From: Verrucomicrobia subdivision 6 bacterium
GTDB lineage: Bacteria > Verrucomicrobiota > Verrucomicrobiia > Methylacidiphilales > Verrucolacustridaceae
NCBI GenBank assembly: GCA_947466515.1
Contig: CANIEM010000002.1
Span: 1-64,000 of the forward strand
Length of the DNA stretch: 64,000 nt
Reading direction: 5' to 3'
Positions 3,980-45,499 of this stretch are shown piece by piece. A program made the translations under genes and the position numbers. The notes under the pieces were generated by a model. That model saw nothing but the letters and a program-made list of their open reading frames with translations. It did no database searches and was not told the origin of the DNA. Position 1 is the stretch's first letter. Every line of letters starts with the position of its first letter.

Positions 3980-6499
3980 GTGAACAATTTCACCCCACGC
4001 GCCCAGCAGGTACTCGCCCTCGCCCGTAAAGAGGCCGATCGTTTTAACCACAACTACGTCGGCACCGAACATATCCTTCTCGGTCTGATCAAACTCGGCC
4101 AAGGCGTCGCTGTCAATGTCCTGCAGAAAATGGGCCTCGACCTTGAAACCGTTCGCATGGAAGTCGAAAAACAGGTCGGCACCGGCCCCGATACCAAAAT
4201 CACTGGCAATATCCCCTACACCCCCAGAGTCAAAAAAGTCCTCGCCCTCGCCAGCAAGGAAGCCAAAGCCCTCCACCACTCCTACGTCGGCACGGAACAC
4301 ATCCTCCTCGGCCTCCTCCGCGAAGGGGATGGCGTTGCCGCCCGCGTCCTCAAATCCCTCGAGGTCGATATCGAACGCGCTCGCCAGGAAGTCCTCAAAG
4401 AACTCGATCCCAATTTCGAGGAAGGCGCCGAACCCGCAGGCGGACTCGAGGAATCTACCCCCGCGGAATCCTCCACCGGCGGAGCCGCTGGCCCTTCTCG
4501 CAAGGACGTCAAAACTCCCGCCCTCAAAGCCTTCGGCCGCGACCTCACCGAACTCGCCCGCAAAAATGAACTCGATCCCGTCATCGGCCGTAAAAACGAA
4601 ATCGAACGAGTTGTCCAGATCCTCTGTCGCCGCACCAAAAATAATCCCGTCCTCATCGGTGAAGCTGGCGTCGGTAAAACCGCCATCGTTGAAGGCCTCG
4701 CTCAAGAGATCGCCTCGGGCAACGTTCCGGAAATTCTTCGCGATAAAAAAGTCATCACCCTCGATCTCGCTCTCATGGTCGCAGGTACCAAGTACCGCGG
4801 GCAGTTCGAGGAACGCATCAAAGCCGTGATGGAAGAAATTCGTAAACTCAAAAGCGTCCTCCTCTTTATCGACGAACTTCATACCCTCGTCGGCGCTGGC
4901 TCGGCCGAAGGTGCCATGGATGCCTCCAATATCATTAAACCTGCCCTCTCTCGCGGCGAACTGCAGTGCATCGGCGCCACCACCATGAACGAATACCGCA
5001 AATACATCGAAAAGGACTCCGCTCTCGAACGCCGCTTCCAAACCGTTCGCGTCGACGCCCCATCCATCGACGAGGCCATTGCCATCCTCCATGGCCTCCG
5101 CCCCAAGTACGAAACCCACCACCATGCCAAAATCTCCGATGATGCCCTCGCCGCCGCCGTCCGCCTCAGCGAACGCTATATCACCGGCCGCTACCTCCCC
5201 GATAAAGCCATCGATGTCATGGACGAAGCCGGCTCACGCTCCCGTATCGCCGCCAGCCTACGCCCTGCCGAATTTAAAACCTCCGCCGCAGAAATTGAAA
5301 CCATTCGCGCCGAAAAAGAAGCCGCCATTAAAGCCCAAGATTTCGAACGCGCCGCCGCCCTTCGCGATCGCGAAAAAGAGTCCACCACAAAACTCGAGGC
5401 CGACCTCGATGCTTGGCACAAAAAACGGGACGAAATCATCGTCGATGTAGGAGAAGAAGATGTGAAACACATCATCTCCAAATGGACGGGCATTCCCCTC
5501 ACCCGCATGGAAGAGGCCGACCTCTCCAAACTCCTCACCCTCGGCGATGACCTCCAAACCCGCGTCATTGGCCAAGTCGAAGCCGTTCAGGCCCTCGCCA
5601 AAGCCCTCCGCCGCTCCCGTGCCGATCTCAAAGACCCCAAACGTCCCATCGGCTCTTTCCTATTCCTAGGCCCAACGGGCGTCGGCAAAACCCACTTAGC
5701 CAAAGCCCTCGCCGAAGAAGTCTTCGGCGAGAAAGATGCCCTTGTTCAACTCGACATGTCCGAATACATGGAAAAGTTTAATGTCTCCCGCCTTATCGGT
5801 TCCCCCCCAGGATACGTCGGCTACGAAGAGGGCGGCCAACTCACCGAAAAAGTCCGCCGTCGCCCCTACTGCGTCGTCCTTTTTGATGAAATCGAAAAAG
5901 CCCACCCCGATGTCTGGAACGTTCTCCTGCAAATTCTCGAGGATGGCCAAATCACCGATAGCCTTGCTCGCAAAATCGATTTCCGAAACACCATTATCAT
6001 TATGACCTCCAACGTCGGAGCCGAACTCATTCGTAAAGGCAGCACCATGGGCTTCGGTACCCCCATCCAAGAACAGGACTATGCCGTCATTAAAGAGAAA
6101 ATCCTCGGTGAAACAAAGAAAACCTTCAAACCCGAGTTTCTCAATCGGCTCGATGACCAGATCGTCTTCCACTCTCTCACCCGCGAAGACCTAAGCAAAA
6201 TCGTCTCCCTCGAAGTCACGAAAGTCGCCGCCCGCCTCAAAGAAAAGGGAGTGTTCATCGAACTCAATTCCGAAGCCTCCACCTTCCTCATCGAAAAAGG
6301 CTACGAACCCGTCTACGGCGCCCGCCCCCTTCGTCGCGCTATCGAAAGATTCCTCGAGGACCCCATTGCCGAAGAAATTATTCGCGGAAAAATTAAAGCA
6401 GGTGACAGCGTTGTCGTCGGTGCCAACAAAGAGGCTCTCACCTTCACCACTACCACACCCCCTGCCCCCGCCACTCCCGCTACCACCGCCGCCACCTGA
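3980..6499 (+). CDS. clpC: ATP-dependent Clp protease ATP-binding subunit ClpC
   Basis: This 839-residue AAA+ unfoldase feeds substrates to ClpP. It has two Clp-N repeats (about residues 1-145, each with [11 protein letters not shown] or [11 protein letters not shown]), a D1 domain with Walker A GEAGVGKT at about 227 and Walker B LLFIDELH, a middle region with a UVR-like motif ([12 protein letters not shown]), and a D2 domain with GPTGVGKT at about 564 and [14 protein letters not shown] in the late D2 domain fits the ClpP-docking loop. The start is GTG at 3980. McsB-phosphorylated proteins are known ClpC substrates in Firmicutes, which matches the gene order. The low-complexity C-terminus (Pro/Ala/Thr) overlaps the next gene's proposed start. 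Confidence 0.97.
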
Positions 6500-7182
6500 A
6501 CACCTATCCGGATCACGCTCAGCGCGTCCGCCACCTCTTCGGCGAACTTGCTCCCTCCTACGACTTCCTTAACCGCCTTTTTAGCCTCGGACTCGATATC
6601 GGTTGGCGCAGGAAACTAGTCTCCTCCGTAGCCTCCCACCACCCACAGAAAATCCTCGATCTCGCTTGCGGATCAGGCGATGTCTCCCTCCTTCTTCAAA
6701 AAGCTCTTCCCACCGCAGAAATCATCGGCCTCGACTTCTCCCCCCCCTTACTCGCCCAAGCCAAGGCCCGCGGAGTCAAACAAACCATCGAAGGTGACGC
6801 CCTCCACCTGCCCTTCCCCAAAAACCATTTTTCCGCCGTCACCCTTGCCTTTGGCCTGCGCAACTTTGCTGACCGCGCTCGCGGGCTAAACGAGATTCAT
6901 CGAGTGCTGTCCCCAAACGGAATTTTCGCTCTTCTGGAATTTAGCCCACCACCCCTTCCCTGGAAACTTTTCTGGAATTTTTATCTATTCCACCTCATGC
7001 CTTGGGTCGCACAGCAGGTGGCGCAACAAGGTAACGCTTTCCGCTATCTCGCTAAAAGCATTTCTGAGTTCCCCACCCCACCAGCCCTCAACCAAGAACT
7101 ACAAACCTGTGGTCTCAAACTCCTCTCAACCCGCTCCATGTCCTTCGGCCTTGTCCGTCTCACCATCGCTCAAAAGTGTTAG
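6496..7182 (+). CDS. UbiE/MenG-type quinone methyltransferase, probable CTG start
   Basis: The reading frame encodes a class I SAM methyltransferase of the UbiE/MenG (demethylmenaquinone/ubiquinone) family. RVRHLFGELAPSYDFLNRLFS matches the family N-terminus, LDLACGSGDVSLLL is the SAM loop, GLRNFADRARGLNEIHRVL is the UbiE signature, and the end FRYLAKSISEFP is also typical. In this frame a stop at 6403-6405 is followed by no ATG, GTG or TTG before the conserved N-terminus. The only plausible start is CTG at 6496, whose CTGA contains the clpC stop. This gives 228 residues, normal for MenG. Only the menaquinone versus ubiquinone assignment is open. Confidence 0.85.
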   Translation: MNTYPDHAQRVRHLFGELAPSYDFLNRLFSLGLDIGWRRKLVSSVASHHPQKILDLACGSGDVSLLLQKALPTAEIIGLDFSPPLLAQAKARGVKQTIEGDALHLPFPKNHFSAVTLAFGLRNFADRARGLNEIHRVLSPNGIFALLEFSPPPLPWKLFWNFYLFHLMPWVAQQVAQQGNAFRYLAKSISEFPTPPALNQELQTCGLKLLSTRSMSFGLVRLTIAQKC

Positions 7183-41618: not shown

Positions 41619-42800
41619 ATGACCATGAAACGGTGGCGTCCTCAACTCATCGCCCTTGCCATCCTCCTCGCCTTCGTCGGCTTCTCCGCTAGTTACGTCC
41701 GCTACTTCGTCCGCGTCCGCACCCACAGCGTCATCGTCTTTTTTGTCCCCGGAGCTAGCCCCGAACTCCTCGCCCTCGCCCAAGCCCGCGACCCCAACCG
41801 CCGCCTCGCAGGGCTCGACCACGCCGATGGCATGGCCTTCGTCGAATCCCAATCCACCGATCACCTCACCGGCGACGCCGCCGCCCTCGCCTCTTTTCTC
41901 GCCACCGGCGAACCCGGCCCCTCCGGTCGCCTCAGCCTTCGCTACGACGGAAAACCTGCTGATACCCTACTCTACGAAGCCCAACGTAATGGTCGCGCCA
42001 TCGGTATCATCTCCTCCGGCCCCATCACCTCCCCTGGCGTAGCCGCTTTTTACTCACACCAAGCCGACGCCTCAGTCTCCTCTACCATCGCCAATCAACT
42101 CCTCGACACCACTCGCATCGACCTCATCTTCGGTGGCGGTCGCGAAATTTTCACCGCCGAGAGACAGGCAGGCCACCGCAACCTCGAGCAGGAAGCCCAA
42201 AAGCTCGACTACACCCTTCTCTTCGATCGTGCCGGCCTCGAAAGCTTTCCCGCTTGGAATACCCGCAAAGCCTTCGGCCTTTTTGCCCCTGGCCCCCTTC
42301 CTCTCACCGCTGCCGCCGGAGAACCGGGCACCATCCGCCTCTCCGATCTAGTCCGCCGTGCCATCGAAACTCTCGCCTACAATTTCCTAGGCTATTTTCT
42401 CGTTATCGACCATCCCCTCGTCGCCCTAGCCGCTGGCCAAAACCAAGCAGATATCGCCGCCCGGCAGATTCAAGAGCTCGATCGTGCCGTCGATACCGCT
42501 CGTCAATATGCAGGCAAAAACACTCTGATCTTGATCTACTGCCCATACTCCGTCGGCGGCTTCCAATTTCTCGATGCCCCCACCCTGGGAAACAAAAAAA
42601 CCTCCGCCCGCCTCCCCTCCCTCTCCTGGCATAATGGCCCAGGCAAAAAAGGCTCCGATCCCGCCGCCATCTCCACCGGAAAACTCGGCGCACCCTCCGC
42701 TGGCTTCGGTTGGGTCGTCGCCTACGGCAAAGGCTCCGAAAGAATTCATGGCATCCTTAACCCAGGCGAACTCCACGCCATCCTCAGTCGCCAGCTCTGA
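41619..42800 (+). CDS. Alkaline-phosphatase-like protein, probably inactive
   Basis: This 393-residue protein has an N-terminal membrane anchor (LIALAILLAFVGFSASY) and follows the alkaline phosphatase fold: AIGIISSGPITSPGVAAFYSHQ, IDLIFGGGREIF, and a final VDTARQYAGKNTLILI. Compared with PhoA, the nucleophile site DSAA reads GDAA (Asp86), the metal-binding GDGMG is VPGAS, and TADHETGG is YCPYSVGG. The Ser nucleophile and most zinc ligands are thus lost. It probably is a binding or structural relative. The next gene, rsmA, appears to start in its stop codon. Confidence 0.72.
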   Translation: MTMKRWRPQLIALAILLAFVGFSASYVRYFVRVRTHSVIVFFVPGASPELLALAQARDPNRRLAGLDHADGMAFVESQSTDHLTGDAAALASFLATGEPGPSGRLSLRYDGKPADTLLYEAQRNGRAIGIISSGPITSPGVAAFYSHQADASVSSTIANQLLDTTRIDLIFGGGREIFTAERQAGHRNLEQEAQKLDYTLLFDRAGLESFPAWNTRKAFGLFAPGPLPLTAAAGEPGTIRLSDLVRRAIETLAYNFLGYFLVIDHPLVALAAGQNQADIAARQIQELDRAVDTARQYAGKNTLILIYCPYSVGGFQFLDAPTLGNKKTSARLPSLSWHNGPGKKGSDPAAISTGKLGAPSAGFGWVVAYGKGSERIHGILNPGELHAILSRQL

Positions 42801-43561
42801 ACCCCACCCAAATCCGCGAAATCTTGGCCACCCACGGCCTGCGCCCCCTGCGTCAGCTCGGCCAGAACTTTCTCGTCGAGCCCACTCTCGCCACCGTCAT
42901 CGCCGCCGCCCTCCCCCCACCCAATCCCGAACCCGTTCAAGAAATTGGCCCTGGTCTCGGCGCACTCACACGCGCCCTCCTCACCGCAGGCCATACCATC
43001 GAAGCCTTCGAAATCGACCAAGGTCTAATCGCTTGGCTTCGCCAATCCTTCCAAAACGAACTTCGCTTCCAACTCATCGAAGGAGATGCCCTCCAAACCT
43101 TAGCCCAACATCCACCCCGCTCCTTCGTCTGCGGAAATCTCCCCTACTCCATCTCCACCCCACTCCTCGTCCAACTCGCCCTCCGCACTCCACCCCCAAA
43201 AACGATCGTCGTCACTCTCCAGAAAGAAGTCGCCGATCGCTTTGTTGCGCTCCCCCGCACCCCCGAGTACGGCGCCGTCACCATTCTCCTCCAAACCGTT
43301 TTCCTTCTCGAAAAGATTCGCACTCTGCCCCCTGAGGTTTTCTATCCTCGGCCCCAAATCGAATCTGCCGTACTGCGTCTCACCTCTCGTCCCTCCATCC
43401 CTCATGATCTCACTAACTTTTATGCTTTTGTGAAGAAGGGATTCTCCCAACGACGCAAACAACTTCAACGACTTCTCCCCGTCCCTCTTACCCAACGAGC
43501 CGAAGAACTCGATCCAGCAACATGGCACCAACTCTATGAGCAGTACGGACGAAAAGTTTGA
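42797..43561 (+). CDS. rsmA: 16S rRNA dimethyladenosine transferase RsmA/KsgA, probable CTG start
   Basis: This methyltransferase dimethylates two adenines near the 3' end of 16S rRNA. LRQLGQNFLVEP, the SAM loop EIGPGLGALTRALL, the catalytic FVCGNLPYSISTPLL, and VFYPRPQIESAVLRL are clear. TTG at 42824 is the first conventional start, but the family usually has about nine residues more (PTxIRxxLxxHGLRP). CTG at 42797 gives MNPTQIREILATHGLRP, matching the family, and lies in a CTGA with the preceding stop. Length 254 is normal. The neighbouring NUDIX gene starts inside its end. Confidence 0.9.
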   Translation: MNPTQIREILATHGLRPLRQLGQNFLVEPTLATVIAAALPPPNPEPVQEIGPGLGALTRALLTAGHTIEAFEIDQGLIAWLRQSFQNELRFQLIEGDALQTLAQHPPRSFVCGNLPYSISTPLLVQLALRTPPPKTIVVTLQKEVADRFVALPRTPEYGAVTILLQTVFLLEKIRTLPPEVFYPRPQIESAVLRLTSRPSIPHDLTNFYAFVKKGFSQRRKQLQRLLPVPLTQRAEELDPATWHQLYEQYGRKV

Positions 43562-44045
43562 CCTCGTCGATCAGGAGGACCGAGTCATCGGTTCCGCCCT
43601 TCGCTCCCAGATCCACGCCCAAGGCCTACTCCATCGCGCCGTCCACCTCTGGCTCTACCACCCCGATGGCCGCCTCCTCCTTCAACGCCGCTCCGTCCAC
43701 AAAGATCGCGAACCCGGTCGCTGGACCTCTAGCGTCAGTGGTCATGTCAATGCAGGAGAAACCTACGACACCGCTATGTACCGCGAAATCCCCGAAGAGA
43801 TCGGCATCCCCACCTCCTCCTGCCTTGCCCTCACCCGCCTTCACTACATCCCCGCCTGCTCCGAAACCGATCACGAATTCGTCTGGCTTTACCGCGCCAT
43901 CCACTCAGGCCCCTTTACCCCCGACCCCCAAGAAGTGGCTGGCCTCACCTTTTTCTCCCCACAAGAAATCGATCAGCTCATTATCCGCCAACCCCAAGAC
44001 TTCTCCACCTGCCTCCTTTTCCTTTGGCAAAAACACCACCCATGA
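43536..44045 (+). CDS. NUDIX hydrolase, YfcD/isopentenyl-diphosphate-isomerase-like
   Basis: This 169-residue protein has FDLVDQEDRVIGSALRSQIH, then LLHRAVHLWLYHPDGRLLLQRRS, typical of YfcD and the IPP-isomerase superfamily, and a complete Nudix box (GHVNAGE, TYDTAMY, REIPEEIG). It overlaps rsmA by 26 bases and the desaturase-like gene by 4 (ATGA). Next to a phytoene-desaturase-like gene an isoprenoid link is attractive, but YfcD-type hydrolases act on nucleotide derivatives; the substrate is unknown. Confidence 0.85.
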   Translation: MSSTDEKFDLVDQEDRVIGSALRSQIHAQGLLHRAVHLWLYHPDGRLLLQRRSVHKDREPGRWTSSVSGHVNAGETYDTAMYREIPEEIGIPTSSCLALTRLHYIPACSETDHEFVWLYRAIHSGPFTPDPQEVAGLTFFSPQEIDQLIIRQPQDFSTCLLFLWQKHHP

Positions 44046-45499
44046 AAACTCCTTTAACCGGTAAGTCCGCCGTCGTCATCGGTGCAGGTCTCGGCGGGCT
44101 TGCTACCGCCCTCCGCCTGCAACAAGCCGGCGCCCGCGTCACTCTTCTTGAAAAGAACCCCACCGTCGGAGGCAAGATCGCCGAACGACGCTCCCACGGA
44201 TTCCGCTGGGACCTCGGCCCTTCCCTTTTCACCATGCCCCACATTCTTGATCGCCTCTTCACCGATCTCGGCGAAGACCGCGCCAATTTCCTAACCCTCC
44301 AACCCTTGTCCCCCACCTGCCGCTACCGTTGGGCCGACGGCTATCAGTTTGACGAAAACGAATTTTTTTGGTCCCGACCCGACTCCGCCCATCTCCTCCG
44401 CCACGCCCAAGGCCTCTATCAACTCTCTGCCACCGCCTTTCTCGAAAGCGATCCCTCCGAAATCTTCCGAAAGATCTTTAACCCCGCCCTCCTGCCCCTT
44501 CTTCGCTTTCTGCCTGGCATGAGCCCTTTTCAATCTCTCGCTGCCGCCTCGCGCCGCTTCTATCGCGATCCCCACCTTCAACAGTTTCTTCAACGCTTCG
44601 CCACCTACAACGGAAGCGACCCCGAACTCACTCCCGCCACTTTCGCCGTCATCCCCTACGTCCAAGCCAAATACGGCGGATGGTTCATCCAAGGAGGAAT
44701 CCGTACCCTTGCCGATTCTCTCCTCGCCTTAGCCACCAAGCGCGGCATCGAAATCCAAACATCTGCCGAAGCTCAATCCATCGACTCCGCCGGCGTCACC
44801 CTCACCTCAGGCAAACGAATCCTCGCTGATCTCATCTTTCACAACGGGGACGTCCTCGCAGCTTACCAAAAACTCATCCGCCATCCCCGTGCCCCCCAGA
44901 CCGCCGCCCAGATGAGTCGCCCCACCCGCTCTATCTCCGGATTCGTCGTTCTCCTCGGCGTCAAAGGCAAGGATCCCTCTCTCGCTCACCACAACATCTT
45001 CTTTTCTGATAACTACCCTCTCGAATTCAAACAACTCTTCCGCGAAAAACGTCCTGCCGAAAATCCTACGATCTACCTTTGCCTTAGCGCCCGCTCCCAA
45101 CCCTCCGATGCCCCCGCCGATCACGACAACTATTTCCTCCTCGTCAATGCGCCTTCCAACACCACCTCCATCGATTGGACCCAAGAGGGCCCCGGCTACG
45201 CCGACCGCATTGTCCAGATTCTTGAGAACAAATTCCTCCCCAACCTTAAGTCCAAGATCGTCCACCAAGAGTTTCTCTCCCCTGCCGACTTCCAATCTCG
45301 CGATGGTGCCGTGGGTGGCGCGCTCTACGGTTGGGCCTCGCACAGCCCGCTCCAATCCTTTCTTCGTCCGCCTATCCGCTCTCCCCTTCTGCCCAATCTC
45401 TATTTCGTCGGCGGCACCACCCACCCAGGAGGCGGTCTCCCCCTCGTTCTTCTCTCCGCGGAAATCGCCGTCCGTCTAGCGCTTAAAAAATATTCGTAG
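44042..45499 (+). CDS. Phytoene-desaturase/CrtI-type FAD oxidoreductase
   Basis: This 485-residue protein has the FAD-binding VVIGAGLGGLATALRLQQAG, TVGGKIAERRSHGFRWDLGP, GGWFIQGGIRTLADSLL, and the C-terminal YFVGGTTHPGGGLPLVLLSAE, characteristic of CrtI/CrtN/CrtP enzymes that desaturate or oxidise carotenoid or related isoprenoid chains. The ATG at 44042 in an ATGA overlap was chosen over a TTG at 44024. A prenyl synthase partner is not in the window, so whether the pigment is C30 or C40 is unknown. Confidence 0.9.
   Translation: MKTPLTGKSAVVIGAGLGGLATALRLQQAGARVTLLEKNPTVGGKIAERRSHGFRWDLGPSLFTMPHILDRLFTDLGEDRANFLTLQPLSPTCRYRWADGYQFDENEFFWSRPDSAHLLRHAQGLYQLSATAFLESDPSEIFRKIFNPALLPLLRFLPGMSPFQSLAAASRRFYRDPHLQQFLQRFATYNGSDPELTPATFAVIPYVQAKYGGWFIQGGIRTLADSLLALATKRGIEIQTSAEAQSIDSAGVTLTSGKRILADLIFHNGDVLAAYQKLIRHPRAPQTAAQMSRPTRSISGFVVLLGVKGKDPSLAHHNIFFSDNYPLEFKQLFREKRPAENPTIYLCLSARSQPSDAPADHDNYFLLVNAPSNTTSIDWTQEGPGYADRIVQILENKFLPNLKSKIVHQEFLSPADFQSRDGAVGGALYGWASHSPLQSFLRPPIRSPLLPNLYFVGGTTHPGGGLPLVLLSAEIAVRLALKKYS

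Follow-up and report, generated by a model that had tools for sequence, protein, structure and literature searches.

CTG start codons within CTGA overlaps appear to be kept across a genus in several housekeeping genes of a freshwater Verrucomicrobia group

The window analysed here is a stretch of 64,000 nucleotides (contig C2:1-64000) of a genome of 2.06 Mb in 84 contigs, and the genes around its two CTGA junctions are listed in Table 1. On inspection of the sequence, the alkaline-phosphatase-like gene ends in CAG CTC TGA followed by AC, with its stop at 42798-42800, whereas CTG 42797-42799 lies in the rsmA frame and shares its TG with that stop (CTGA, 42797-42800). The translation from this CTG is (M)NPTQIREILATHGLRPLRQLGQNFL, and the product so read begins MNPTQIREILATHGLRPLRQLGQNFL. 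The first ATG, GTG or TTG of the rsmA frame is the TTG at 42824, and the 12 open codons on the 5' side of the CTG hold none of ATG, GTG, TTG or CTG. The protein matches TIGR00755 with 212.1 bits, above the curated cut-off of 171, as well as PF00398, which places it in the RsmA/KsgA family with its start codon as the sole difference. At its other end, rsmA overlaps the next gene, which we take to be Nudix/idi-like, in two frames (43536-43561), and the T preceding the rsmA TGA is kept in 17/17 genus rows. The gene that follows is presumably crtI-like.

Table 1. Features at the two CTGA junctions of the window and in the adjoining genes.
Feature	Position	Strand	Remarks
ClpC/ClpB-type AAA protein gene upstream of menG	3980..6499	+	Ends ACC TGA
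Putative menG/ubiE CTG start codon, CTGA overlap	6496..6498	+	136 codons without canonical start; 12/15 genus loci
menG/ubiE-like methyltransferase, 228 aa from CTG	6496..7182	+	PF01209
Alkaline-phosphatase-like gene upstream of rsmA (PF00245)	41619..42800	+	Ends CAG CTC TGA
Putative rsmA CTG start codon, CTGA overlap	42797..42799	+	CTG in 17/17 genus loci; ATG/GTG aligned in 12/12 order loci
rsmA/ksgA, 254 aa from CTG	42797..43561	+	TIGR00755, PF00398
TTG, likely choice of a standard gene finder; rejected as genus-wide start	42824..42826	+	CTG in 11/17 genus loci
Next gene, presumably Nudix/idi-like, ordinary ATG start	43536..44045	+	26 nt overlap with rsmA end
Presumably crtI-like gene, ATGA overlap, ordinary coupled pair for comparison	44042..45499	+	Identity presumed

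We observed CTGA at the rsmA start in all 17 genus loci that cover the N-terminus, our own genome included, with both the overlap and the stop kept; an eighteenth locus (L018) is truncated and was left out. In other families of the order, the exactly aligned column holds ATG in nine loci and GTG in three (12 homologues compared; five further order matches were left out). Furthermore, the N-terminal segment ahead of the GQNFL motif is present from the CTG in every one of the 17 genus loci. An earlier note on this DNA had proposed that RsmA extends N-terminally past the TTG and starts at CTG 42797, in a CTGA shared with the upstream stop. The junction is as the note described it, the codons ahead of the TTG correspond in the alignment to the beginning of each of the 12 order homologues, and the comparison across genus and order supports CTG 42797, rather than TTG 42824, as the rsmA start codon. 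Two CTGA junctions were also claimed for the window, and the second was found at 6496, where it joins the Clp-type AAA gene to the MenG/UbiE methyltransferase gene. The menG frame holds no ATG, GTG or TTG in the 136 codons after the CTG, nor in the 30 open codons preceding it, and residues 8-226 of the protein match positions 6-232 of PF01209 (E 2.7e-45). Among the 15 genus loci analysed for menG, the three that do not have CTGA have a GTG a few codons away.

Six junctions were traced through 40 genomes each, namely those of rsmA, menG, a folC-like gene, def (peptide deformylase), an RlmD/TrmA-like methyltransferase gene (TRAM plus PF05958) and a class-V aminotransferase gene. CTGA was found in 17/17 genus rows for rsmA, 12/15 for menG, 17/17 for folC, 18/18 for def, 19/19 for the RlmD/TrmA-like gene and 13/17 for the aminotransferase, or 96 of 103 in total, the other seven rows being without the junction and having GTG or TTG nearby. 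In all 96 rows the base on the 3' side is A (CTGAA). In the genome studied here, the next canonical start lies 9 codons after the CTG in rsmA, 136 in menG, 24 in folC, 18 in def, 25 in the RlmD/TrmA-like gene and 11 in the aminotransferase gene, and conserved domains begin within the first 8-12 residues, at profile position 6 for menG, 2 for def and 8 for TRAM. For the segments ahead of the first canonical codon, five genes give pN/pS values of 0.27-0.35, indicating that these segments evolve as protein. For the aminotransferase the corresponding value is 0.83, which makes its start the least secure of the six; in this set the four rows without the junction carry a TTG near the start and three rows have TAG or TAA upstream, while TGA is fixed in all CTGA rows. 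Overall, CTG appears to be kept across the genus at CTGA overlaps in several housekeeping genes.

The earlier note had further regarded CTG restarts as a habit of this genome and had suggested a count of CTGA overlaps against chance, which we ran on 847 kb including the window (41% of the genome; 727 genes called). Since third-position composition divides the genes into a C-rich and a G-rich group, a three-class codon model was used; a gene finder with a single codon model had assigned rsmA and its surroundings to the wrong strand and was replaced. A downstream gene was counted when its frame was the one set by a shared NTGA and ATG, GTG and TTG were absent from −20 to +8 codons, and xTAA/xTAG stops served as the control because they are unable to be NTG starts. 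Downstream genes were opened at 37 of 110 ATGA stops, 16 of 55 GTGA, 9 of 54 TTGA and 9 of 63 CTGA, against 7 of 445 xTAA/xTAG stops (CTGA versus control, Fisher p = 2.3e-5). After removal of one recognised false match the CTGA count is 8/63 (p = 1.2e-4, the controls not being curated likewise), which does not differ from that of TTGA (p = 0.6). Together with the further genus-conserved CTGA starts, this excess supports the view that CTG restarts are a real habit of the genome, 41% of which was scanned.

The false match (L123 10816) is antisense to a tRNA-Asp gene (L123 10748-10822) that runs across the upstream stop region of the gene pair and creates a false open N-terminal extension; it recurs with identical peptide in the congener G002. 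There, a 453 kb sample gave 1/32 CTGA, solely this tRNA match, although conserved cases do exist in the G002 genome, and in G026, from another family, CTGA (1/38) was not above xTAA/xTAG (5/184). Three further CTGA candidates were set aside, two with a canonical start a few codons further on (L189 946, L180 12468) and one with a canonical start 3 codons earlier as well as a plausible ATG 19 codons further along (L188 13420). Plausible additional candidates are L112 14853, a chagasin-type inhibitor (PF09394) with a lipoprotein-like N-terminus, L121 2912, L170 2567 and L117 18172. A pairwise screen of our own genome (G000) against G002 for conserved extensions 5' of canonical starts was too noisy and was dropped.

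Upon combining position, conservation, alignment with canonical starts elsewhere and excess over controls, we conclude with considerable confidence that CTG 42797 starts rsmA, probably by termination-reinitiation, as one of a small genus-conserved CTGA set (rsmA, menG, folC, def, the RlmD/TrmA-like gene and the class-V aminotransferase gene). SD-like motifs are weak overall in this genome (117/433 clear starts versus 82/433 control positions) and precede 1 of 9 CTGA restarts versus 10 of 37 ATGA restarts. Looking more widely for CTG starts that are not part of a CTGA yielded no convincing case. Restart by the terminating ribosome is suggested by the overlap, by how rarely an SD-like motif is present and by the fact that convincing cases are limited to CTGA, and termination-reinitiation at CUG is the most likely mechanism. 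On terminating the phosphatase-like gene at UGA, the ribosome would already sit over the overlapping CUG and would restart there, at a spacing of −4 nt, with the CUG presumably decoded by initiator fMet-tRNA through a first-position mismatch and Met inserted. We infer that the protein begins at the CTG codon. In E. coli, according to PMC2268962, reinitiation without SD is inefficient and excess IF3 inhibits it.

Whether the C of the CTG is itself under selection was addressed by the variation around it. ATG, GTG and TTG are regarded as stronger starts than CTG, and replacing the junction C by A, G or T would leave the upstream protein unchanged where the last codon before the stop is CTC, CCC or ACC. 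The final 100 codons of the six upstream genes contain 103 four-fold columns with reference C, of which a single one does not vary within the genus; of the two-fold columns with reference C, 3 of 19 are invariant (three genes). By contrast, no row of rsmA, folC, def or the RlmD/TrmA-like gene departs from C at the junction, two of these junctions lying in G-rich-wobble genes. No TTG, ATG or GTG replaces CTG within the junction among the 96 CTGA rows; a GTGA/ATGA stop junction close to folC, taken for comparison, shows a 9:8 split, and the ATGA ahead of crtI stands at 14 to 1. We entertain, tentatively and as somewhat less than an even prospect, that CTG is a selected restart codon, CTGAA being held against ATGA, GTGA and TTGA at particular operon junctions, probably so that output stays low and strictly coupled and could not be raised by de novo initiation. 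It is also possible, if rather doubtful, that CTG is a true start that is weak and tolerated, having drifted in through the wobble C of the previous gene with no selection on it. Of the long training genes, roughly one in three is C-rich at the wobble position (class 2: 48% C), and C before TGA is kept at other stops of the same loci in 20/23 rows (p = 0.006 against all CTGA rows, with rows non-independent) and in 6/6 G000-G002 orthologue pairs where both members end in TGA and the G000 member has the C, one of them rsmA. Because C is mostly kept at other TGA stops as well, stop context may explain part of its conservation; the drift account sits poorly, however, with the single invariant column among the 103, with the four genes in which the junction C does not vary and with 96 rows devoid of any switch next to a 9:8 split near folC.

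Termination-reinitiation at CTG 42797 also has to be set against readings in which rsmA is opened in another way. TTG is an accepted start codon, and an ORF from TTG 42824 keeps the GQNFL motif in this genome, so that the similarity upstream of it would be untranslated or accidental. This is very unlikely, as 11 of the 17 genus loci have CTG in place of the TTG, and in these the next ATG, GTG or TTG comes 20-72 codons after the start CTG and, in 9 of the 11, inside or past GQNFL. The codons between CTG and TTG, those that match the homologues' starts, show pN/pS of 0.35, versus 0.25 for codons 31-110, and a downstream start is inapplicable to menG, whose next canonical codon is 136 codons away.

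A genus-specific altered initiator tRNA that makes CUG a normal start is similarly improbable. The anticodon arm of the initiator-like tRNA here is CAGGCTCATAACCTG, with A29-U41 in place of G29-C41, in what we take to be the position numbering of this tRNA. In E. coli, a changed anticodon stem of fMet-tRNA lowers discrimination against CUG, as stated in PMC11497404. Against this stands the identity of the 25-base string in every matching genome, genus and order alike (26/40 genomes), among them G026, where CTGA shows no excess; the anticodon, moreover, is CAU. Since the arm is the same in genus and order, it does not explain a genus-specific habit. The string lies at G000:C29:12403-12427 in our genome, with matching places in 26 of the 40. 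The order's initiator-like arm reads CAGG CTCATAA CCTG, an A-U pair replacing the first of three conserved G-C pairs, and 3/40 genomes contain the canonical GGG/CCC arm string, as a putative tRNA (string match). Finally, programmed −1 frameshifting that joins both frames into a fusion protein would suit a downstream frame that is the −1 frame at an overlapping stop, but it is extremely improbable, as no slippery motif is common to the six junctions (last codons CTC, ACC/AGC, CCC/CTC/CAC, TAC and GAC), the fused products would be unrelated enzymes, and orthologues elsewhere begin with ATG or GTG at the aligned place.

Coupling at NTGA overlaps by termination-reinitiation at −4 nt is well known (PMC12548453 and PMC6728339). 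As in such coupled pairs, the phosphatase-like gene and rsmA are co-directed, stop and start share two bases, and the NTG start is aligned with homologue N-termini (ATG or GTG in 12/12 order homologues); the junctions described here are mostly without an SD-like motif. They differ in that the start is CTG, while the accessible parts of the two papers treat ATGA or NTGA in general, and the string CTGA is absent from the main text of PMC6728339. In PMC5622118, 4 switches to CUG are given among approximately 69,000 reconstructed ancestral AUG, GUG or UUG starts, and CUG genes were omitted from part of the analysis as too few; the codon is the same, but here several core genes appear to carry it throughout a genus. 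PMC11497404 describes in vitro E. coli complexes with CUG in frame in the P site with the CAU anticodon of a mutant fMet-tRNA, initiation at CUG being inefficient and the complexes less stable. The pairing of CUG with CAU is that proposed here, whereas the mutant fMet-tRNA is particular to those complexes. PMC4648390 has a eukaryotic subject and was set aside. A search of open-licence papers that covered CTG or CUG starts, overlaps of the CTGA type and the start codons of Verrucomicrobia brought up no report of genus-wide CTGA restarts; NTGA coupling is known, and switches to CUG are rare.

If CTG starts are used in this way, gene finders limited to ATG, GTG and TTG will truncate or lose such genes. 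Standard calling would strip MenG of its first 136 residues and Def of its first 18, and truncated or lost calls would falsify pathway and core-gene assignments for such genomes. A start codon rated as exceptional appears to be fixed in several core enzymes and, at NTGA junctions here, about as frequent as TTG (8/63 versus 9/54). Through the invariance of the C, it can be tested directly by comparison whether selection favours a weak codon in order that only reinitiating ribosomes translate the gene.

Two further observations concern other stops and the composition of the genome. At the stop at L280 2622, which ends the RlmD/TrmA-like gene, the sequence is TTGA; T precedes TGA in 17/17 TGA rows, while the first two bases of the codon vary (GGT, GAT, AGT, CAT, CGT), and this TTGA may possibly be a conserved TTG restart. 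Additionally, two opposite third-position classes were observed in the window and 783 kb of other stretches, one with G 46% and C 13% and the other with C 48% and G 13%. In the window, genes on the + strand belong mostly to the C-rich class and those on the − strand mostly to the G-rich class, a strand-wise split that suggests strong strand-biased mutation.
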